From positions 1 through 64,000 of the forward strand of contig JAKBMB010000033.1 in NCBI GenBank assembly GCA_021831785.1: a stretch of DNA of 64,000 bases, given 5' to 3'. This document shows positions 1 through 46,180 of the stretch, piece after piece; position 1 is the first letter of the stretch, and every line of letters starts with the position of its first letter. The position numbers and the translations under genes are program-made. Below the pieces are notes generated by a model. The model was not told the origin of the DNA, ran no database searches, and was given only the letters and a program-made list of their open reading frames with translations. The stretch comes from Deltaproteobacteria bacterium. Its GTDB lineage: Bacteria; Desulfobacterota; Binatia; Binatales; Binataceae.

Positions 1-46
1 GCGCGGCCAATGACCACCCACCGACCGGGCTGGCACCGCGGCCACA

Positions 47-83
47 GGGCGGGCACGGCGGCCCGCCCTACTACTCAAAAATT
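47..83. repeat. Dispersed GC quasi-palindrome with A/T tail, copy 1
   Basis: A 22-base quasi-palindrome (GGGCGGGCACGGCGGCCCGC and on to CCC) is followed by TACTACTCAAAAATT. The same tail follows the exact reverse complement of the core at 4636-4672, and the core plus CCACTA recurs at 46129-46154. No gene overlaps it. It resembles a REP-like dispersed intergenic repeat; function unknown. Confidence 0.6.
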
Positions 84-85
84 CA

Positions 86-218
86 CAAACTCTCAGAATG
101 ACAAGGGGGACGCTCAAAATGGCCAAGGGGGTGCTCAGGATGACCGAGGGGGCACAGGATGACCGAGGCAGACCCGCGCAGGATGACAAAAGAGGGCGCG
201 CAGGATGACCAATGGGGG
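86..218. repeat. Degenerate tandem repeat, about 20-30 bp units
   Basis: About six imperfect units share the core CAGGATGACCGAGGGGG (variants AGAATGACAAGGGGG, AAAATGGCCAAGGGGG, AGGATGACCAATGGGGG). Spacing is irregular and there are no conserved spacers, so it is not a CRISPR. It lies in the gene-free stretch before position 464; the rest of that stretch (219-464) shows nothing recognisable. Confidence 0.55.
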
Positions 219-464
219 GCGTACATTCTTCGCTGCGCACGCAATGGCAGCGGCGGATGCGGCGTGGGGATGTGCGCAAGTTGTTCAAGCTATTTGCGGG
301 ACACCATACTAGAGGTCACCCCATGAATGGGGAGCCGAGAACCCCGGCATCGTGTCACCGCAACAACGCCGCAATCCTGCGCGTTTGTCGGCCGCAGCAG
401 CGCTTCGTCGAGGGTTGACATAAGACCGTGCGCTGAATATCCAGCAGGGCCGTAAGTCGGAGCA

Positions 465-1130
465 CTAGGAGCGCCTGCGCTGCTTCAAGCCGACGTAGGC
501 TTGGTCGATCACCCCCGCTATCTCACGGCTTAGCTCTCCCAGCACCTGGCTCAACGCGCCCGCGCCGGCCGCGGGGCCCGCGGTTGGTGTCTGAGCGGTC
601 AAGTCCGAGGACTGCGAGATGACCGCGCGGCCGCGTGTGTCGCGCACAACCCAGCGGGTGACCAGATGGGCGGCGCCGGCGGTGTCGGTGTCAAAACGAC
701 CGACATCGATTTCGACTTGGTAGTCGATGTGCGTCGAGCTGTACCAGGGAAAGAGCACCACCTGGTCGGTGCCGAGCAGGCGCGCGAGATTCAAGGCCAT
801 TACCTGGCGAAAGCTCGCGTCCAGTGGCTCCGCCCATCGATCGCTCTCGGAGACCCGCACGCTGTTGGGTCCGGTACGCGTTACAACCTGGGTCCGTTTC
901 AAGTAATCGGGAAAGCGGATCGGACCGAGGCCGACGGCAAGCCGCGCCGCGCCCGTTGTCCCGGCGCTTCCGGCTTTGACCGGCGTCAGGATAAAAAAGC
1001 GCGAGGACCCCTGTTGCGGCGCCAGAAGCCCACACGCCCAGACCGTTTGCGCGCAGAGCGCCGCAGCCGCCGCGACCCGCAAAAGGACCGTTCGCCGGGG
1101 CCCCGCGCCGAAGCCGTGAGCGCCCCTCAT
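465..1130 (-). CDS. PqiC/DUF330-type ABC transport auxiliary lipoprotein
   Basis: A 221-residue protein with an Arg-rich N-terminus, a hydrophobic segment (about residues 13-33) and a lipobox-like VWAC site, then a soluble domain typical of ABC_trans_aux/PqiC proteins (RFFILTPV strand, IRFPDYLKR, WAEPLDASF). Family members are outer-membrane lipoproteins working with MCE proteins in lipid transport. The ATG overlaps the stop of the upstream MlaD-like gene by 4 bases, implying translational coupling and a shared role as last gene of the mla-type operon. Identification rests on motifs and context. Confidence 0.8.
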   Translation of the reverse strand: MRGAHGFGAGPRRTVLLRVAAAAALCAQTVWACGLLAPQQGSSRFFILTPVKAGSAGTTGAARLAVGLGPIRFPDYLKRTQVVTRTGPNSVRVSESDRWAEPLDASFRQVMALNLARLLGTDQVVLFPWYSSTHIDYQVEIDVGRFDTDTAGAAHLVTRWVVRDTRGRAVISQSSDLTAQTPTAGPAAGAGALSQVLGELSREIAGVIDQAYVGLKQRRRS

Positions 1131-2086
1131 TGTTCGTCCCGCGCCGCGGCCCGTCCGCGAATCAGAGCCGACGGATTGCGCTGAAGATAGTCGGCCAACT
1201 CCTGGGTGGAACGCGCGGCGGCGGCGAGCTGGTTCATTGCTTCGTTCATGCGGTAAATCAGCGGCGAATCCGGGGCCAGCGTCGTCTGCACGGTTTTGAA
1301 CGCCGCATTGGCGGCGTTAGAGGTTTCGCTCAGGCTTTTTTGCAGCGGCCGAAGCTGGCCGTCGAGCCGGCTGGTCATTACGCGCACGCTGGCCGCGGTT
1401 TCGCTCAAGCTCGCCGCCGCATGCTGCAAGGCAGCGAGGGCGCCTTCGATCTGGCCCGATTTGATCAGGTCATGAACCGAGCTGACCGTCGCCGTCAGCG
1501 AGGCGACCAAGCCCTCCAGGTCTACCTGGTCGAGCCGCTTAATAAGCCGTTCGGCGGCCGACTGCGCCTGCTGCAGTGCCGTCGGCACGGTGGGAATCTC
1601 CGGGTACTGCGGGTTGCGCCGCGCGAAAACGCGGATGCGGCTGCCGGGAAAAAAGTCCAACGCGACGTAGCGCGTGCCGGTAACCAGGCTCTCGGTGGCG
1701 AGCTGAGCTCGCATGCCCGCCGCGATCAGTTGCTTGAGCATCGCCCCGTTGCCCAGGTCGACGGGGCCGCCGAGGCTGACGATCCGGTCCAGGTAGATCT
1801 CGATCACGACCGGCACGCGGATTTCGCCCTGTGAAATCGCGGTTGGCGCGTAACCCGGCGGATTTAACGTGAGCAAAATCTGGGTCACCGCCCCCACATG
1901 CACCCCGTGAAACCGCACCGGCGCCCCGACGCCGAGCCCGGTTACGTCGCTGCTAAAGTAGCACACGAACTGTCGCGTGTGGGAGAAGAAACGCCCGGAG
2001 CTGAAAAGCACTATTGCCAGCAGGGCCAAGCCTGCCGCGCCTAAAACAAACGCTCCGACCAAGGTCGGACTGACTCGCTTTCTCAT
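1127..2086 (-). CDS. mlaD: MlaD-family MCE protein, lipid-transport substrate-binding subunit
   Basis: About 319 residues from the chosen ATG at 2086, which overlaps the ATPase stop as ATGA and has GAGGA upstream; a longer frame start at 2155 lies inside the ATPase gene and is unlikely. It has one N-terminal membrane helix (about residues 8-30, VGAFVLGAAGLALLAIVLF), then an MCE domain (VTGLGVGAPVRFHGVHVG, about 45-65), then a long helical region (about 165-300) with Ala/Ser-rich heptads. MCE proteins form periplasmic hexamers or tubes that carry phospholipid between membranes. It sits between the ATPase and the auxiliary lipoprotein. Confidence 0.9.
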   Translation of the reverse strand: MRKRVSPTLVGAFVLGAAGLALLAIVLFSSGRFFSHTRQFVCYFSSDVTGLGVGAPVRFHGVHVGAVTQILLTLNPPGYAPTAISQGEIRVPVVIEIYLDRIVSLGGPVDLGNGAMLKQLIAAGMRAQLATESLVTGTRYVALDFFPGSRIRVFARRNPQYPEIPTVPTALQQAQSAAERLIKRLDQVDLEGLVASLTATVSSVHDLIKSGQIEGALAALQHAAASLSETAASVRVMTSRLDGQLRPLQKSLSETSNAANAAFKTVQTTLAPDSPLIYRMNEAMNQLAAAARSTQELADYLQRNPSALIRGRAAARDEQ

Positions 2087-2883
2087 ACGTTCCTCGCCTG
2101 GCTGGCCGCCTCCTGGCCGCGGGTCAGGAAGCGATGCACCCTGGGGTCTTCGCATTGTTCGAGCAGCGCTCTAGGATTTCCTTGGGCGATCGCGGTCCCG
2201 CTCTCGGCGTCGAGAAACAAGCTGCCATCGCCGATAGCGAAAATGCTGGCCAGGTCGTGCGACACGACCACCACCGTAGCGCCGAGGCTCGCGCGCAGCT
2301 CGAGTATCAAGTCGTCGAGCAGCCGCGCGCTCAGCGGATCAAGCCCAGAAGACGGTTCGTCGAAAAACAGCACCTCCGGGTCGAGCGCGATCGCTCGCGC
2401 CAACCCGCCGCGCTTGCGCATGCCTCCGCTGAGTTCACTCGGATAAAAATCCTCGAACCCCTTGAGCCCCACCATCGCAAGCTTAAGCGAAACAACCTCC
2501 CGGATTTCGTCCGGTCTCAAGCGGGTGAATTGTGCCAACGGCAGGCCGACGTTCTCCGCCAGGGTCATCGAGCTCCATAACGCGCCGCCTTGGTACAGAA
2601 TGCCAAAGCGCCTCAGCATCGCCTCGCGTTCCCCCGGATCGGCGCGGGTGAAGCTGACGCCGTTGTAGAGGACCTCCCCCGTGGCAGGTTCGATAAGTCC
2701 GACCATATGACGCAACAGCGTGCTCTTGCCCGAACCGCTGCCGCCCATGATGATGAAAATTTCACCGCGCTTGACGGTGAAATTGATCCCGCTTAGCACC
2801 ACGCGGTCGCCGTAGGCCATAGCCAGATCGCGCACCTCGATGTGCCATGGCTGCGCGGCCGGCTGATCAGCGGTCTGTTCCAT
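2083..2883 (-). CDS. mlaF: MlaF-type ABC transporter ATP-binding protein
   Basis: A 266-residue cytoplasmic ABC ATPase. Walker A is GGSGSGKST (residues 47-55), the signature is LSGGMRKR (about 152), Walker B is VLFFDEPSSGLD (about 175) and the switch His lies in VVVVSHD. LSGGMRKR with Met-Arg-Lys-Arg is characteristic of the Mla/Mkl group. It powers lipid movement through the MlaE permease encoded just upstream (45-base gap) and overlaps the mlaD start by 4 bases. Length is normal for the family. Confidence 0.93.
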   Translation of the reverse strand: MEQTADQPAAQPWHIEVRDLAMAYGDRVVLSGINFTVKRGEIFIIMGGSGSGKSTLLRHMVGLIEPATGEVLYNGVSFTRADPGEREAMLRRFGILYQGGALWSSMTLAENVGLPLAQFTRLRPDEIREVVSLKLAMVGLKGFEDFYPSELSGGMRKRGGLARAIALDPEVLFFDEPSSGLDPLSARLLDDLILELRASLGATVVVVSHDLASIFAIGDGSLFLDAESGTAIAQGNPRALLEQCEDPRVHRFLTRGQEAASQARNV

Positions 2884-2928
2884 CGATTCCTAAACCCGGC
2901 GCTCGCCGGCTGGGCAAAGCGCGGCCTC

Positions 2929-4086
2929 TCATAAATGCAGCAGGTTGAAGACAACGGCGAAAAGGCCGCACGCTGTCACGACCCATATGATGGCGTCGAC
3001 CACCGCTGCGGTGGTCACTTCTCCCACGGCGGAGGAACCCGCTTGCGCCTCGAAACCGCGCCAGCATCCCGCGATCGCGACCAGAACACCGTATACCGTG
3101 GCCTTGAACAAGCCGCCGACAAGCGTAGTCAGCGTGACGGCCGCGGCGGTGCGCGTGAAATAGCTGACAAAAGAGATGTGCAGCACTCCGGCGGCCACGG
3201 CTGCTCCTCCCAACATTCCGATAAAGTCGGCGTACAAGCACAAAAGCGGCATCATCATGACCAGCGCGAGCACCCGCGGCAAGACCAGAAACTCCACCGG
3301 CGAGATGCCCATCGTGGCGAGCGCGTCGACCTCGTCCGAGACCTTCATCGAGCCTAGCTCGGCCGCATAGGCCGCCCCGGTGCGGCCGGCCATGATAATC
3401 GCGGTCATCATCGCGCCCATGTCGCGCGCAATGCCGATGCCGACCAGGTCAGCGACGTAAATCGCCGCTCCGAACTGTTGCAACTGCACTGCGCCCATGA
3501 AAGCCAGAATAGTGCCCACTAAGAAACTGATCAGGCTTAGGATTCCCAGCGCCTGCGCGCTGCACCCCTGAACTTGGACTATCAGGTCGGAAAGACGCAT
3601 CCGCGCGCGCCCGCTCAGAAGCCTGGCGAAAGCGATTACCACTAAGCCGGTGAAGTTGAACAGCCCCAGGCTGCTCTGGGCAAATTCTATCGCGGCTTTG
3701 CCGACCCTATACACCACCCTACGGTCGCCTGAACCGCTTTCGGAGACCGCATGTGCGGGTTCATTCTCTGCCAGCTTGAGCAAGTGCTTGAGCCCCTCGG
3801 GCAGGCCGTTGCGGTCAATCTCGATTCCGCGCTCGGCACATGACGCTACTACCCGTGCGACAAAGGCGACGAGGCTCGTGTCCCAGGTGCGGAGGTTGGT
3901 TGCGTCAAACGCGACGCACCGGGGGCGGCCGTCTGATTCCAGTTGGCGTTCGATTTCCCTCGGCGCCGGCAGCTCGTTCCCAAGCCGCCAGGACCCCGTG
4001 AGCTCGATCATCAAGGTCGAGTCCGGCCGGTAATCGAACCGAATTTCGTTGCGCGCGGCTTTGCTCGCTGACGCTTGCATCGACAT
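2929..4086 (-). CDS. mlaE: MlaE-family permease with N-terminal STAS-like domain
   Basis: 385 residues. Residues about 15-110 resemble an STAS/MlaB domain (IRFDYRPDSTLMIELTGSW; VAFDATNLRTWDTSLVAFV); residues about 130-385 are an MlaE permease with five or so hydrophobic segments and the motif GRTGAAYAAELGSMKVSDE. In this variant MlaB is fused to the permease instead of being a separate protein, an arrangement known for many bacteria. It is the first gene of the operon; the upstream region to 5308 holds repeats and no obvious promoter. Confidence 0.92.
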   Translation of the reverse strand: MSMQASASKAARNEIRFDYRPDSTLMIELTGSWRLGNELPAPREIERQLESDGRPRCVAFDATNLRTWDTSLVAFVARVVASCAERGIEIDRNGLPEGLKHLLKLAENEPAHAVSESGSGDRRVVYRVGKAAIEFAQSSLGLFNFTGLVVIAFARLLSGRARMRLSDLIVQVQGCSAQALGILSLISFLVGTILAFMGAVQLQQFGAAIYVADLVGIGIARDMGAMMTAIIMAGRTGAAYAAELGSMKVSDEVDALATMGISPVEFLVLPRVLALVMMMPLLCLYADFIGMLGGAAVAAGVLHISFVSYFTRTAAAVTLTTLVGGLFKATVYGVLVAIAGCWRGFEAQAGSSAVGEVTTAAVVDAIIWVVTACGLFAVVFNLLHL

Positions 4087-4207
4087 CTAGCTGACGCTCG
4101 GTGAGCAAGCATACCACTGAGACGCGCGCAAATCTTTGCTTCGCTGCCCGGCGCGAGACGGTCAAGCCGGCGCAAGAGGCAAGGGCTCGGCCTTTGCGGC
4201 GACCTTT

Positions 4208-4300
4208 TCTACTGAGGACTGCAGAATACAGTGACAGGCCGACTTTCAGCTTGGCCTCCTACCGTGGGGCAGACTTTTAGCCTGCCCTCTCGGGCGGGAA
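4208..4300 (+). repeat. Dispersed ~90 bp repeat, copy A
   Basis: Begins CTACTGAGGAC(T)GCAGAATA and continues CAGTGACAGGC, then TTGGCC, GTGGGGCAG, CTTTTAGCCTG and TCTCGG. The same blocks in the same order occur on the opposite strand at 27241-27333, and the first 20 bases recur near 63465. No ORF is conserved across copies. Confidence 0.65.
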
Positions 4301-4635
4301 GCCCGAGCCCCTCGATCCTCGCCTTCCTCCGCGCTGCGAGACTGCCGATTATCCCGTTCGGCAGTGCGGTCAGTGGTGAGCAGATAGTTAACGCGCTCTC
4401 TCGTTCGGAGACCGTTGCATAACACCCAACAAGCATCGCTGAGACGGCCGCGAAGCGGCCGGCCCGAGCTTGGCGAGGAGCCTCGGCGCAAGCTTGTGCG
4501 TCGCGCCAGCTTGCGGCTCGCAAATCATCGTTGGCTTCCTTCGCTCCGCTGAGATTCCTCGCTGCGCTCGGAGCCTGTGAATTTTTGGCAAGCTGCCGCA
4601 TGCCGCCGCAGGCTGCGCCGGATATGTCTCTAGCG

Positions 4636-4672
4636 GGGCGGGCCGCCGTGCCCGCCCCACTACTCAAAAATT
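4636..4672. repeat. Dispersed GC quasi-palindrome, inverted core, copy 2
   Basis: The core here is the exact reverse complement of the core at 47-68 (GGGCGGGCCGCCGTGCCCGC and on), yet the downstream tail ACTACTCAAAAATT keeps the same orientation. This means the hairpin-forming core has flipped relative to its flank. Confidence 0.6.
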
Positions 4673-4709
4673 CCCCAACGCTCGGCATGACAACGAAACC
4701 AGGGCCCTT

Positions 4710-5064
4710 TTATTCTGCTTCCGGAGCCCTTCGCTCGTCACTCCGACCCCTTCCTCTGTCATTCCGAGCGCAGCGAGGAATCCCAGCGTTGGTGGAGCTT
4801 TTGCTGCATTGAGACCCTTCGAGTTGGGCAAAGATTTCCGACTGAGAGGGGCGACCCACGGGCTGGCGCGCGACGTTGACGGCGATTACCGGCCCGCGCC
4901 GCATCGCCAGCAAAAGGTCGATCGGCATAAGGCGGCGCGCATCGATTTGCGCGTGATGCTCAATCCCCGCCTCGTTGATCGCGAAATCATGAGGGCCGGC
5001 AGCTTCGACGATGCGGCCCCGGCGCGCGATACCCTTGCGCCGTACGCGCCCTGGCGACTACTAT
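4710..5064 (-). pseudogene. Possible patatin-like phospholipase C-terminal remnant
   Basis: Read on the minus strand from after a stop near 5065, the frame gives a stretch ending DARRLMPIDLLLAMRRGPVI followed by AVNVARQP. It resembles the LP(V/I)DxxxxxxRGPVIAVDV end of NTE/patatin-family hydrolases. No lipase Ser motif or upstream portion is visible, so if real it is only a fragment. Weak call. Confidence 0.25.
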
Positions 5065-5308: not shown

Positions 5309-6538
5309 CTAGTCGGAACTCTCTTCGCTGTCCGTGGCACCGCCGAAACCGTGCTCTCGAGCGCTCCAAGAGCGGATGAGCATGAGAACAGCCAGATACT
5401 CAATGACTAGCGCGATAAAATAAGCATGCAGATGCCGCACCTGCGTAGAATAGTACGGAATAGCAAAACCCAGCGTAGCACATAGAAACATCAGTAGCGC
5501 GGTTCTGGGAGCGATTTCTCGGTGCTGTGTGAGGTATGCCGCTATAAAGACGTAAAGCGGCAGCGTCAGCGTGAGCTCGTGGTTCCACGCTATGGGCGAG
5601 ACGAGCAGCGCGGCGATTAGCCACAGGCTAAAGCAGATGCCATCGACCTCGACCGTCTCGGCCGAGCGCGCCGTGGCCCAGGCGCCGAGCGCGATTACAC
5701 ATAAAGAGAGAAAGACGTACGTCGCTGCCGCCCAAGTCGCCTGCTGAGCCGCCGTCAACCCCAGCGCTGCGACGGCCGAGTACACCTTAAGCAGCAACGC
5801 CAGCGCCCGTTCGTCGCGCGCCCAATCGGGCGCGCTGAAATAGGGCAGCGCGCCGGAGAATAGCGATTCGCGCCAGAGCGCCGGCCCGGTGGCAACGATC
5901 CCGACAGCGCACCACACCACGCTCCATACAATTACGTCAAAGCGCCGTCGGAATAGGAAATAGCCGCCCGCCACCGCCGGATAGACTTTCAGCAAGATCG
6001 CAACCGCGAGCATGAAGCCTGCCGGAACGGGGCGTCGATGGTTTGCCAGCGCCCACGCGCCAACCAGTAGCAAGAGGAGCATCGCAGTGGGCTCGCTTTC
6101 GTACAAGGTCCCGAAAAGAAGGTAAGGCGAGAGCAGAACGAGCGTCCCCAGCCCGACGGCGATCTTGGCGGCCGCCCCGCGTTGGAACTGGCCGAAGGTG
6201 AGAACGAGGGCCGCCAGCAATGCCGCGAGCTGAGCGCCCTGCCATATCCAATAGGCAAGCTGCTGATCCAGACGCGCCAGCGGCGCGAAGACCACGATAA
6301 AAAACGGCGTATAGTTGCATCCGTGTCGCCAGGTATTGAGCCCGTGGTTGAACTGACTCCACCACTTGAAGTAGTCATTAAAGCCCACCTGCTGGTAGCG
6401 CAGCCGGTTCTCATACAAGACGTGAGCGACAAGCAGGGCGCCGACCGTCGCGAACAACACAATGGCCGCATAGGCGTAGCGCGCCGCCGGGCTGTTCGCG
6501 TCCTCCCGCGAGCAGCCCTGATCCGGGTTTTCGCTCAT
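5309..6538 (-). CDS. GT87-family (DUF2029) polyprenol-phosphate-mannose-type glycosyltransferase
   Basis: About 409 residues with roughly ten hydrophobic segments. The first loop after helix 1 contains VGFNDYFKWWSQFNHGLNTW and NYTPFF, matching GT-C glycosyltransferases of family 87, where an acidic residue in this loop is catalytic (the Asp in FNDY is the candidate). Such enzymes use polyprenyl-phosphate sugars on the outer face of the inner membrane. ATG at 6538 or 6550; neither has a clear ribosome site. It is last in a minus-strand run with an aminotransferase and amidohydrolase, with no evident functional link. Confidence 0.75.
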   Translation of the reverse strand: MSENPDQGCSREDANSPAARYAYAAIVLFATVGALLVAHVLYENRLRYQQVGFNDYFKWWSQFNHGLNTWRHGCNYTPFFIVVFAPLARLDQQLAYWIWQGAQLAALLAALVLTFGQFQRGAAAKIAVGLGTLVLLSPYLLFGTLYESEPTAMLLLLLVGAWALANHRRPVPAGFMLAVAILLKVYPAVAGGYFLFRRRFDVIVWSVVWCAVGIVATGPALWRESLFSGALPYFSAPDWARDERALALLLKVYSAVAALGLTAAQQATWAAATYVFLSLCVIALGAWATARSAETVEVDGICFSLWLIAALLVSPIAWNHELTLTLPLYVFIAAYLTQHREIAPRTALLMFLCATLGFAIPYYSTQVRHLHAYFIALVIEYLAVLMLIRSWSAREHGFGGATDSEESSD

Positions 6539-6785
6539 CGTATAGAGCATGATCGGGGCGCCGCGCGATTAACCGGAGAATGCGTTTGGCTGCGCCGTTA
6601 GTTTGCAAATCATGGTTGACATGCGCTCAACGAGGCGCCGCCTGTAAACCGGTGGAAGCCTGGGGCGTCTGCAATACTTCACGCCGCGCACGGTATCTGC
6701 AGCGCCAACCGCTCCTGCAACGGCGCCCGGAGCCGCACGCTAGCTCACCTGCGGGCCGCGGTTCGGAAACTGCGTTCGAAGATTC

Positions 6786-26982: not shown

Positions 26983-27403
26983 TATATATTGACGGGGCCG
27001 GCCGACCGCAACTCAACGCTGACCGGGCCGTACTATTGAGGGTTGCAAAATATTGATACGGCGCGCAGCCGTAGGGTGGCTTGGTGCTCGCTGCGCGGGC
27101 AAGGCCCGCGCCCCCATCCTAACCTTCTCCCGCGCGGCGGGGGAAGGAACCGAAGATAGGGCCTTCGCCGCGTTGCGGGGCAAGGTAAGCATGGGGGGTG
27201 GCTCAGGCTTCCAGCCTGAGATGACAGTGGCTCGGGTTTTTAGTCCGAGATGACAGGCTAAAAGCCTGTCCCACGGCCAACCTCAGAGTCCGCCTGTCAC
27301 TGTATTCTGCGGTCCTCAGTAGACCGCACTCGCCGCGCCGGCGTGCCCGGAAAAGTGCCGCGCCTAAAAAAGCGCGACCAAGCCGCGCGCTCCCAAGGCA
27401 GCT
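26983..27403. other. Repeat-containing intergenic region
   Basis: Contains CATCCTAACCTTCTCCCGCG and a GC hairpin near 27120, then the inverted copy of the dispersed ~90 bp repeat (27241-27333). A related CCTAACCTTTCCCCTGCCGC stretch occurs near 63660. No gene seen. Confidence 0.55.
27241..27333 (-). repeat. Dispersed ~90 bp repeat, copy B (inverted)
   Basis: Reverse complement of this segment matches 4208-4300 in block order: CTACTGAGGACCGCAGAATA, CAGTGACAGGC, TTGGCC, GTGGGACAGG, CTTTTAGCCTG, TCTCGG. Confidence 0.65.
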
Positions 27404-43720: not shown

Positions 43721-43975
43721 CAGAAAGCGCGGATGTGAGCCCCACGGAACGCGTGTGAACTTGACCTGGCCTCTGTCTTTGGACCGGATAATTTGCGCCC
43801 GGTTGAGTACAATTCGCGGTAAGCGACTTCTCGCCCGCCCGCCTTACCCAATTTGAGTGCTGGGCGAAAAGCTCCGTTACAAGCCTCCCTTAGGAGTTAG
43901 CGGCCCCGGCGGACCAGAAGTAGACCATCGAACAACCGGAAAAAGTGTGCCCAAATTGGACGCAGAGGTAGTTTG

Positions 43976-45835
43976 ATGCCGACAGAGGAAAAACCGCCGG
44001 CAGAACATCCATCCGAGTCGAAGAGGCTGAGCCACCTTATCGCCAGGCTAGACGAAATTCAGGTCAGTTTGGCGGTCTCGGAAGCGACGCTGGCGACCAA
44101 GCTCGAGCAGGCCGATCCTAGCTATCGCGCGAGCGCGCGTAATCTCGCGCATTACCTGGCCCTGCGTCGGCAAGACATTCGCGAGCTACAGGACGAACTG
44201 GCGAGGCTTGGCCTATCGTCCCTTGGGCGCGCCGAAGCCCATGTGATGGCTACGATCGATTCGGTGCGCGGAGCATTGTACGGTCTGGCCGGCCACGGCT
44301 GGAAGCTTTCGCCTTCCTCGCCGAATTTCCTTGAAGGCCGGGCGTTGCTGGAGGAACATACGCGCGCTCTTCTCGGTCCTCGTCCCCAAAGGCGTTCGGT
44401 GCGGATCATGGTCACAATGCCTACCGAGGCGGCCTCTGACTACCGCTTGGTCCGGGAGTTGGTGGCGGGCGGGATGGATTGCATGCGCATCAACTGCGCC
44501 TACGACGACGAGCGCGCCTGGGCGCGTATGATCGAACATCTTACTCGCGCCAAAGTCGAGCTTGGGCGAGACTGCCGCGTGGTTATGGACTTGGCCGGAC
44601 CCAAGCTGCGAGTGGGACCTATCGAGCCCGGACCAGAGGTGATCAGGTTCCGCCAGGGGCGCGACGCTTTAGGACGAGTTACGCGACCGGCGCGAATATG
44701 GCTGGTGCCTGCCGGACAGGAAGGGCTTAAGCCTCCAACGGACGTTGACGGTGTGTTGCCGGTCACCAAGGGCGCGGTCGGCTCGTTGCAGGTGAGTCAA
44801 GTTCTCGCCTTTACCGACGCGCGCGGCGCCCGTCGCAAGCTCACGGTGTCATCGGTGGTCGGCGAGTTGGCGGTTGTCGAGTGCGACCAAAGTTCGTACG
44901 TGACTTCGGGGACGGAGTTGAGGCGCAAGAACGAAGCCGGAACGACCGAAATTCTTAAGATAGGTGTTCTGCCGGCGTTGCGGATGCCAATCCTGCTTAA
45001 GCCGGGTGACACGTTGATCCTGTCGCGGGAACCGTGCCTTGGCAGAAGCACCAGGCAAGACGGTGACCGGACGGCCGCAGAGGCCACGGTAAGCTGCAAC
45101 ATGCCCGAAGTTCTCGACGACGTTCGCAGCGGCGAACGGGTCTGGTTCGACGACGGAAAGATCGGCGGCGTTATCAAGGGGGTCGATGCCGGACGCGCAC
45201 GGATAGAGATCACGCAGGCAGCGCCTGCGGGCAGCAAGCTTGCCGAGAACAAGGGCATCAATCTGCCGGACAGCAATCTCCGTATACCATGCTTTACCCG
45301 CAAAGACCTCGAAGATTTGCCGTTCGTGGCCGCGCACGCCGACTTGATAGAGATGTCCTTCGTGCGCGAGCCCCGGGACATCGAACAGCTTGAAGCACAG
45401 CTCGCCCGATTTGCCGGCCGTACTTTGGGGATCGTGCTCAAGATCGAGACCCGCCGGGCGTTCGAGAATCTTCCCGAGCTGGTTTTCGCCGCGATGCGAC
45501 ATCCCGCGGCCGGCGTTATGATCGCGCGCGGCGACCTGGCGGTCGAATGCGGCTGGGAACGGCTAGCGGAGGTGCAGGAGGAGATTCTCTGGATCTGCGA
45601 AGCCGCTCATCTGCCGGTGATTTGGGCGACCCAGGTGCTCGAGAGCCTCGCCAAGAAGGGGCAACCCTCGCGAGCCGAGATCACGGATGCCGCCATGGCG
45701 GAGCGGGCCGAGTGCGTGATGCTGAACAAGGGGCCGTATATTCTCGAAGCGCTTAAGGCCCTCGACGACATCCTTCGCCGAATGCAGGCGCATCAGGTGA
45801 AGAAGACCGCGATGCTGCGACGGTTGCGCTGGTAG
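43976..45835 (+). CDS. Pyruvate-kinase-like protein with N-terminal extension
   Basis: About 619 residues (ATG 43976, GAGG seven bases upstream). Residues 1-140 are a charged helical extension of unknown role. The barrel follows: RIMVTMPTEAASDYRLVREL, GMDCMRINCAYDD, VVMDLAGPKLRVG, a B-domain-like insert (about 240-400), ENKGINLPDSNL, EMSFVREPRDIEQL, VLKIETRRAFENL (Glu for substrate/Mg) and MIARGDLAVECGWERLAEVQ, IWATQVLESLAKKG, AEITDAAMAERAECVMLNKG. The usual C-terminal allosteric domain is absent. The initial T-I-G-P motif is VTMPTEA, so catalysis should not be taken for granted. Confidence 0.85.
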   Translation: MPTEEKPPAEHPSESKRLSHLIARLDEIQVSLAVSEATLATKLEQADPSYRASARNLAHYLALRRQDIRELQDELARLGLSSLGRAEAHVMATIDSVRGALYGLAGHGWKLSPSSPNFLEGRALLEEHTRALLGPRPQRRSVRIMVTMPTEAASDYRLVRELVAGGMDCMRINCAYDDERAWARMIEHLTRAKVELGRDCRVVMDLAGPKLRVGPIEPGPEVIRFRQGRDALGRVTRPARIWLVPAGQEGLKPPTDVDGVLPVTKGAVGSLQVSQVLAFTDARGARRKLTVSSVVGELAVVECDQSSYVTSGTELRRKNEAGTTEILKIGVLPALRMPILLKPGDTLILSREPCLGRSTRQDGDRTAAEATVSCNMPEVLDDVRSGERVWFDDGKIGGVIKGVDAGRARIEITQAAPAGSKLAENKGINLPDSNLRIPCFTRKDLEDLPFVAAHADLIEMSFVREPRDIEQLEAQLARFAGRTLGIVLKIETRRAFENLPELVFAAMRHPAAGVMIARGDLAVECGWERLAEVQEEILWICEAAHLPVIWATQVLESLAKKGQPSRAEITDAAMAERAECVMLNKGPYILEALKALDDILRRMQAHQVKKTAMLRRLRW

Positions 45836-45959: not shown

Positions 45960-46180
45960 GCTAACCCTGAAGCGAAAATAACTTTATCGCTGAAGACTCG
46001 GAAGTCCGCGCCCTATGCCTGCGGCATACTCCAAGGGTAGCGGACCGGCTTGCGGGTTTTTGGTGCGTTGGACGTTGCCCGCTCCGCGGGTCTCGGTGGC
46101 GCGGGCGGCCCTGCCCGCGCTGGGCACGGACGGGCACGGCGGCCCGCCCCACTAAGATTTATTTTCGCTTCAGAGCTAGC
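45960..46180. mobile_element. MITE-like element with 26 bp terminal inverted repeats
   Basis: Left end GCTAACCCTGAAGCGAAAAT onward (45960-45985) and right end in reverse complement GCTAGCTCTGAAGCGAAAAT onward (46155-46180) match at about 22 of 26 positions. The 221-base interior includes the GC quasi-palindrome core with CCACTA (46129-46154) shared with 47-83. No real ORF. The right end abuts the stop of the XRE gene. Confidence 0.6.

Follow-up and report, generated by a model that had tools for sequence, protein, structure and literature searches.

The closest described counterparts of the repeat analyzed here are the GTAG REP families, whose short, GC-rich hairpins bear a GTRG-like tag at the base and reach high copy number, and which form head-to-head dimers around conserved spacers with a possible stem-loop, some of them within longer palindromes (parts of PMC3733652). 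The REPINs of Pseudomonas fluorescens are likewise inverted REP pairs that fold as one hairpin, and single REPs are regarded there as remnants of doublets (PMC3116915, mainly section 10). In RAYT/TnpAREP REPtrons, an HUH transposase gene is accompanied by REP pairs on both sides (parts of PMC8266576), bacterial MITEs are short, with inverted ends, 5-base duplications, and no recognized coding sequence (definition in PMC3733652), and in chloroplasts small hairpin loops invert between inverted-repeat arms (parts of PMC9887819).

Each of these traits recurs in the genome described below, including a transposase whose best PDB match is TnpArep, and there are differences from what the consulted parts of these sources describe. 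Unlike in the GTAG REP families, many dimers lie between conserved ends bearing target duplications, and singles vary in the orientation of the loop relative to the tag, a comparison of arrangement rather than of consensus sequences (PMC3733652). MITE-like ends and duplications also set the copies apart from P. fluorescens REPINs (PMC3116915). In contrast to REPtrons (PMC8266576), the REP pairs beside the transposase gene are tail-to-tail and carry a CGCGGGC stem or a GGCCCT loop, which is not the commonest form in the genome. The MITE-like element E1 differs from bacterial MITEs (PMC3733652) in having a REP dimer at its center, and no parent IS was seen for it among the 100 of its 113 ends that were listed, while the loop inversions differ from those of chloroplasts (PMC9887819) in being bacterial, in involving a 6-base loop and in affecting a multi-copy repeat.

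REP Hairpins in the Window

The window, meaning the whole stretch analyzed, comprises 64,000 nucleotides from the start of a contig (here C12) of a Deltaproteobacteria bacterium of the Binataceae (GCA_021831785.1). The 22-base core GGGCGGGCACGGCGGCCCGCCC reads on the plus strand at 47–68 and is present as its exact reverse complement at 4636–4657, and the tail ACTACTCAAAAATT follows both cores in the same direction, at 70–83 and 4659–4672. An earlier note had described this arrangement, and it is confirmed; since each of the core arms, GGGCGGGC and GCCCGCCC, is the reverse complement of the other, however, reverse-complementing the core alters only the 6-base loop (ACGGCG versus CGCCGT), and what flips is the loop. 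The third core listed in that note exists, with one mismatch and a tail other than ACTACTCAAAAATT, and occupies 46128–46149, starting one base before the position given. The features, in window coordinates, are as follows.

1–46, minus strand: part of the B-side dimer spacer beside copy 1, as read from the sequence; the same spacer adjoins other copies
47–68, minus strand: REP hairpin copy 1, with GTAGTAG at the foot on the minus strand and loop CGCCGT in register with T1 (gap 2); C12:48-74
70–91, plus strand: T1 end of the MITE-like element E1, the tail of the earlier note, followed by CTCAG at 92–96
4567–4571, no strand: putative target duplication CTCGG, left copy
4572–4680, no strand: putatively collapsed E1, consisting of T2, one REP hairpin and T1, and measuring 99 bases from the GTG... 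mark at 4577 to the ...CCC mark at 4675
4577–4629, minus strand: T2 end of E1, reading outward
4636–4657, plus strand: REP hairpin copy 2, whose loop matches the register of T2 (gap 34) and is flipped relative to T1 (gap 5)
4659–4680, plus strand: T1 end of E1, reading outward
4681–4685, no strand: putative target duplication CTCGG, right copy
45965–46175, no strand: E3, of a second MITE-like family, with ends CCCTGAAGCGAAAATAA and TTATTTTCGCTTCAGAG and with CTAA and CTAG outside them; ends set by eye
46099–46120, plus strand: second hairpin of E3, with loop GGCCCT, which is also present beside the RAYT gene on contig C10
46128–46149, minus strand: REP hairpin copy 3, one mismatch, within E3

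Because base 1 of the window is base 1 of contig C12, the contig start truncates the element to which copy 1 belongs, and its second hairpin and partner core are not visible. The inverted end GAGTTTGTGAATTTTTG lies within T1 beside this copy (C12:76-92, minus strand), and copy 2 (C12:4637) has loop ACGGCG beside its GTAG. With copy 1 at the contig end, copies 2 and 3 are the ones in the window that lie between open reading frames, which are long or have Pfam matches: copy 2 is flanked by an MlaE permease gene (2929–4086, minus) and a GT87 gene (5309–6550, minus), and copy 3 has on one side a gene encoding a pyruvate kinase domain (43973–45835) and on the other an open reading frame without a Pfam match. 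In folding, two short hairpins reach −12 to −13 kcal/mol (z of −2.8 and −4.4 against shuffles), and the whole stretch at 4571–4681 does little better than its shuffles (z of −1.6). Beside the E1 element at 4572, 4209–4444 and 4737–4788 are further dispersed repeats with matches on several other contigs, and 4208–4256 has an inverted partner at 27275–27323 (90%).

A GTAG-Type REP Family

Across the 3.68-Mb genome (34 contigs), the 17-mer GGGCACGGCGGCCCGCC has 112 exact copies, divided 57/55 between the strands, so that the core, as a genome-wide count bears out, is far from peculiar to the window; the same 17-mer written backwards has no copy, and 0.01 copies are expected from the base composition of the window. 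Flanks were surveyed first for 97 distinct copies and later for 104 of the 112 exact places. A GTRG tag stands on the expected side in 97 of these 104 cores (on both sides in nine of the 97), on the wrong side only in three, and on neither side in four; copy 2 at 4636 is one of the three. The family is thus built of a GGCGGGC/GCCCGCC stem with a 6-base loop and, at the base of the stem, a GTRG tag, and the pattern GTAGTRGGGCGGGC-6N-GCCCGCC is found at 52 places, six of which have the opposite loop (a hairpin on contig C15, tagged on both sides, enters this count twice). The core is a GTAG-type REP hairpin with more than 100 copies in the genome.

Head-to-tail arrays of cores with a period of 39–41 bases occur at two loci, L086 (C4:21-160) and L044 (C13:69318-69412). 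Exact cores lie within 160 bases of 20 of the 68 contig ends of the 34 contigs (104 of the 112 cores examined), and the repeat probably broke the assembly there.

The fullest form of the REP is a REPIN-like, head-to-head dimer around a spacer that carries a hairpin of its own (GCGGGC-GTGGC-GCCCGC). All 22 core pairs that enclose this spacer hairpin are minus/plus, i.e., head-to-head; tail-to-tail core pairs are also present in the genome. One dimer folds to a long DNA hairpin at −67 kcal/mol, a value without a shuffle control. The partner of the core (C) may be a long-loop variant, X, giving a C-X heterodimer. In the heterodimers at L150, L020, L023, L025, L035, and L075 the long loop of the second hairpin starts with ATTC(T/C)TCGGCTTCGCTCAG and resembles a dispersed repeat.

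MITE-Like Elements Carrying the REP

The REP hairpins belong to at least two MITE-like families. In the first, E1, both T1 and T2 finish in CAAAAATTCAC plus a few bases, which form the inverted ends; the inverted end GAGNNNGTGAATTTTTG is found at 113 places in the genome at up to one mismatch (control, 0). Elements with two ends span 62–284 bases between the ends, with no coding sequence recognized. An identical 5-mer lies outside both ends in 18 of 30 such elements (a 31st, on contig C7, was too near the contig start and was left out), mostly CTGAG, CTCAG, or CTCGG, with CTNAG as the general pattern of the duplications. Shuffled partners gave a mean of 6.4 identical 5-mers and a maximum of 14 in 20,000 trials, and the 5-mers further out than the duplication were identical in none of the 30 elements. 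Among the remainder, the outside 5-mers differ at one base in six and at more in six. An earlier, looser pairing, in which some places were counted twice, gave 22 of 38. Beyond the ends of many E1 copies, L141 and L147 among them, the flanking sequence frequently runs on into CTGAGCGCAGCGAAGAATC, a further repeat and perhaps a preferred target.

Core and tail keep company throughout the genome and not in the window alone. The exact 17-base tail ACTACTCAAAAATTCAC has 31 copies, among which the tail at 4659 is not counted as it ends in CCC; 28 of them adjoin a core with up to two mismatches. The neighbor of each remaining tail (C2:45697, C11:8226, C25:154597) is, judged by eye, a core remnant. 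The spacing is restricted: among 46 T1 junctions the gap is 2 in 31, 5 in 10, −1 in four, and 2 with the loop flipped in one.

The second family, E3, is represented by at least 25 stretches of 120 bases or more with 77–95% identity to a related copy, among the matches listed.

Loop Register and a Probable Collapse of Dimers

Core-tail junctions with up to two core mismatches were typed as in register or flipped according to the orientation of the loop; there were 112, a number equal to that of the exact cores by coincidence. All 39 junctions of C-C dimers and all 15 of half dimers that keep the spacer hairpin are in register. Among 51 cores without the spacer hairpin, 35 are in register and 16 flipped, and the seven C-X dimer junctions divide into five and two. 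The excess of flips where the spacer hairpin is absent (16/51 versus 0/54) gives p = 2e-6 in a Fisher test. Two flips are doubtful, C14:262970 because of a small deletion and C14:293768 because T2 is truncated and part of the spacer kept, and dropping them gives 1e-5; both p-values serve as a guide only since the copies are related.

The best explanation, which we hold to be likely though well short of certain, is that GTAG-type REP dimers inside MITE-like elements collapse to singles, and that a few copies have in addition undergone a loop inversion in place. As a dimer the REP, first spread perhaps by a RAYT, forms the center of MITE-like elements, chiefly E1, each loop being in register with the end that it adjoins. 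A slip between the identical arms of the two hairpins would then delete the spacer and leave one hairpin between two ends, and this hairpin would retain the loop of either the left or the right partner and so appear flipped against one end. A single loop lying between two ends cannot agree with both, so a flip relative to one of them is unavoidable. On this account the copy at 47, which is in register with T1, is half of a dimer, and the copy at 4636 a collapsed E1 that kept the loop of the T2 partner. Nine aligned 99-base E1 elements carry the loop of the T2 partner in six cases and that of the T1 partner in three, at equal length, as a slip in either hairpin arm predicts. The direction of change, from dimer to single, is what we infer from these forms, in keeping with the reading of singles as remnants in other REPINs. 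Counting against the explanation are the 12 of 30 elements without an identical outside 5-mer, the failure to find an E1 transposase among the ends inspected, and a related genome (G040) with 28 exact cores but without a Y1_Tnp match; nor is there a locus observed as a dimer in one strain and as a single in another. Furthermore, two C-X dimers are flipped though their spacer is intact, so that collapse alone is insufficient for these, and in a few copies the 6-base loop has inverted in place as an additional step, probably by way of the hairpin or of a template switch.

Inversion in Place and Other Explanations

The chief alternative for the copy at 4636 is that its 6-base loop inverted in place, through cruciform resolution or replication template switching, instead of being left by collapse. 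Inversion by cruciform or hairpin had been proposed in the earlier note for the pair at 47 and 4636, which does not require it, dimer collapse being equivalent; the proposal is supported by two heterodimers elsewhere. Two of the seven C-X heterodimers differ from similar 192-base elements by exactly this change: C10:28489 shows an exact inversion of the 6-base loop, amid scattered substitutions, relative to C4:174471, C4:313154, and C5:9062, and so does C4:197749 relative to C26:144799, a pair with the other spacer orientation. As the 192-base heterodimers keep the spacer intact, their flips go beyond a single collapse; a two-step deletion may also produce them but is more complicated. Judged from these comparisons, flipping of the loop, probably driven by the hairpin, also occurs, in two of the seven heterodimers.

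The spacer, too, is found both ways between T1 and T2, 14 and 5 times among 19 elements by script. Of these 19, two have a spacer hairpin that fits either orientation almost as well as the other, and three are shortened; when the shortened ones were left out and the ends defined more loosely, counting by hand gave 10 and 7. These may be read as inversions between palindromic arms, though separate origins are possible. Chloroplast hairpin loops behave likewise in the account given in part of PMC9887819. In a limited search, neither loop inversion in REPs nor the occurrence of REPs in Binatota/Binatia turned up as the subject of a paper, which is weak evidence of absence.

Against inversion in place stand the 39 C-C dimer junctions and 15 half-dimer junctions without a single flip, and the consideration that singles between two outer ends look flipped in any case. 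A broader proposal, that REP loops recurrently invert in place between their palindromic arms, with singles and heterodimers free to flip and C-C dimers locked by loop-loop pairing, could accommodate those dimer counts, if each loop of a C-C dimer were held in register by pairing with its partner in the long hairpin; we entertain it tentatively, as somewhat improbable. That the particular copy at 4636 arose in this manner is rather unlikely. Since collapse and in-place inversion yield the same single-core sequence, the history of this copy is not proven by the sequence that it now has.

It is improbable that a RAYT inserted single REPs beside a pre-existing tail in either orientation. The genome does have a RAYT gene with REP pairs on both sides, and REP dimers within palindromes are known in other bacteria (PMC3733652, in its section 7). 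However, the core-T1 spacing is fixed, at gap 2 in 31 of 46 junctions and gap 5 in 10, exact tails that lack a full core still adjoin a core remnant, and what the duplications enclose is the element from end to end, REP included. Solo landing beside a tail was set aside on account of the fixed spacing and of duplications that flank the whole element.

An assembly artefact at the repeats is very improbable. Cores do crowd at contig ends, where the copy at 47 itself lies; against this, the copy at 4636 and most flipped copies are internal to their contigs, random mis-joins would not keep 39 of 39 dimer junctions in register, and the elements are shorter than an ordinary sequencing read. Least credible of all is a site-specific recombinase that flips the core as a switch, which was set aside, though not disproved, because beyond the occurrence of cores in both orientations there is neither within-locus evidence nor any recognized gene or promoter cargo, all that could invert is a 6-base loop or a short spacer, and the observation does not need it. 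The collapse of REP dimers within MITE-like elements, supplemented by occasional inversion of the loop, accordingly remains the explanation that we prefer.

RAYT Transposase

A search for a Y1/RAYT transposase, which the earlier note had suggested, returned three Y1_Tnp matches in the genome, on contigs C10, C9, and C24. The gene on C10 (C10:24341-24919, minus) has REP pairs of the core family on both sides, with loops CGCCGT and GGCCCT, which are variants of the core REP. Its protein scores 85.5 bits against the NCBIfam model REP_Tyr_transpos (cut-off 80; the C9 copy, 96.4), and no PDB entry other than E. coli TnpArep (4er8, E 4e-5) matches it with an E value of 0.01 or less; the HUH stretch and the tyrosine align with those of TnpArep and are invariant in the three genome copies. 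The 3-kb loci around the C9 and C24 copies showed no core-like repeat. At L033 (C24:403-2358, minus) the RAYT-like domain is part of an open reading frame of 652 aa, an arrangement suggestive of an in-frame landing of the gene within another.

The REP-type spread by a RAYT-like transposase raised in the earlier note therefore survives in part: the REP repeat and the RAYT-like gene are both present, but the tailed copies are MITE-like elements with inverted ends and duplications. Inverted ends and target duplications are not known as products of RAYT enzymes; thus the RAYT is probably not what spread the tailed copies, and the duplications probably point to a different enzyme for E1. A transposase of E1 was not found, in that none of the 100 listed of the 113 ends, inspected by eye, had a facing end 500–3000 bases away. 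An origin of the REP from the RAYT is plausible, but movement of the present copies by this enzyme is not proven.

Related Genomes

A Y1_Tnp match is present in four of the 41 genomes of the family, this one included, and outside this genome the C10 protein has its best relative at 49% identity. Eight of 96 relatives, again counting this genome, contain the untagged 17-mer. In a genome from another genus of the family (G040), 28 exact cores were found, together with dimers that have a similar spacer hairpin, which suggests that the REP dimer may be old; this genome, 85% complete, has no Y1_Tnp match. A genome of the same genus (G001) has no exact core and retains both flanks of the element at 4636 (83% and 75% identity), between which its sequence does not align to the repeat region; a precise empty-site junction could not be placed.

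In a named genome collection, from which records near this genome were perhaps left out, the tagged hairpin was found exactly on four contigs of two MAGs of Deltaproteobacteria bacterium. One of these contigs, from YP4.bin102, has the same repeat modules as the present genome; with 40 of 291 first-look candidates scored, the two share no orthologous stretch among the 83 matches listed, all under 200 bases, but only repeats.

Implications

The presence in one genome of REP dimers, half dimers, collapsed singles, and loop inversions allows the decay from dimer to single to be read directly, and the lodging of REP hairpins within two MITE-like families offers a possible way for REPs to spread without their own transposase acting. 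Between palindromic arms the loop alone has an orientation, so that a hairpin that appears flipped beside a fixed flank need not be a switch. If loops do invert recurrently in place, their orientation relative to the tag would report on how active cruciforms or template switches are in a bacterial genome, and on whether a REP dimer has kept its mobile form.
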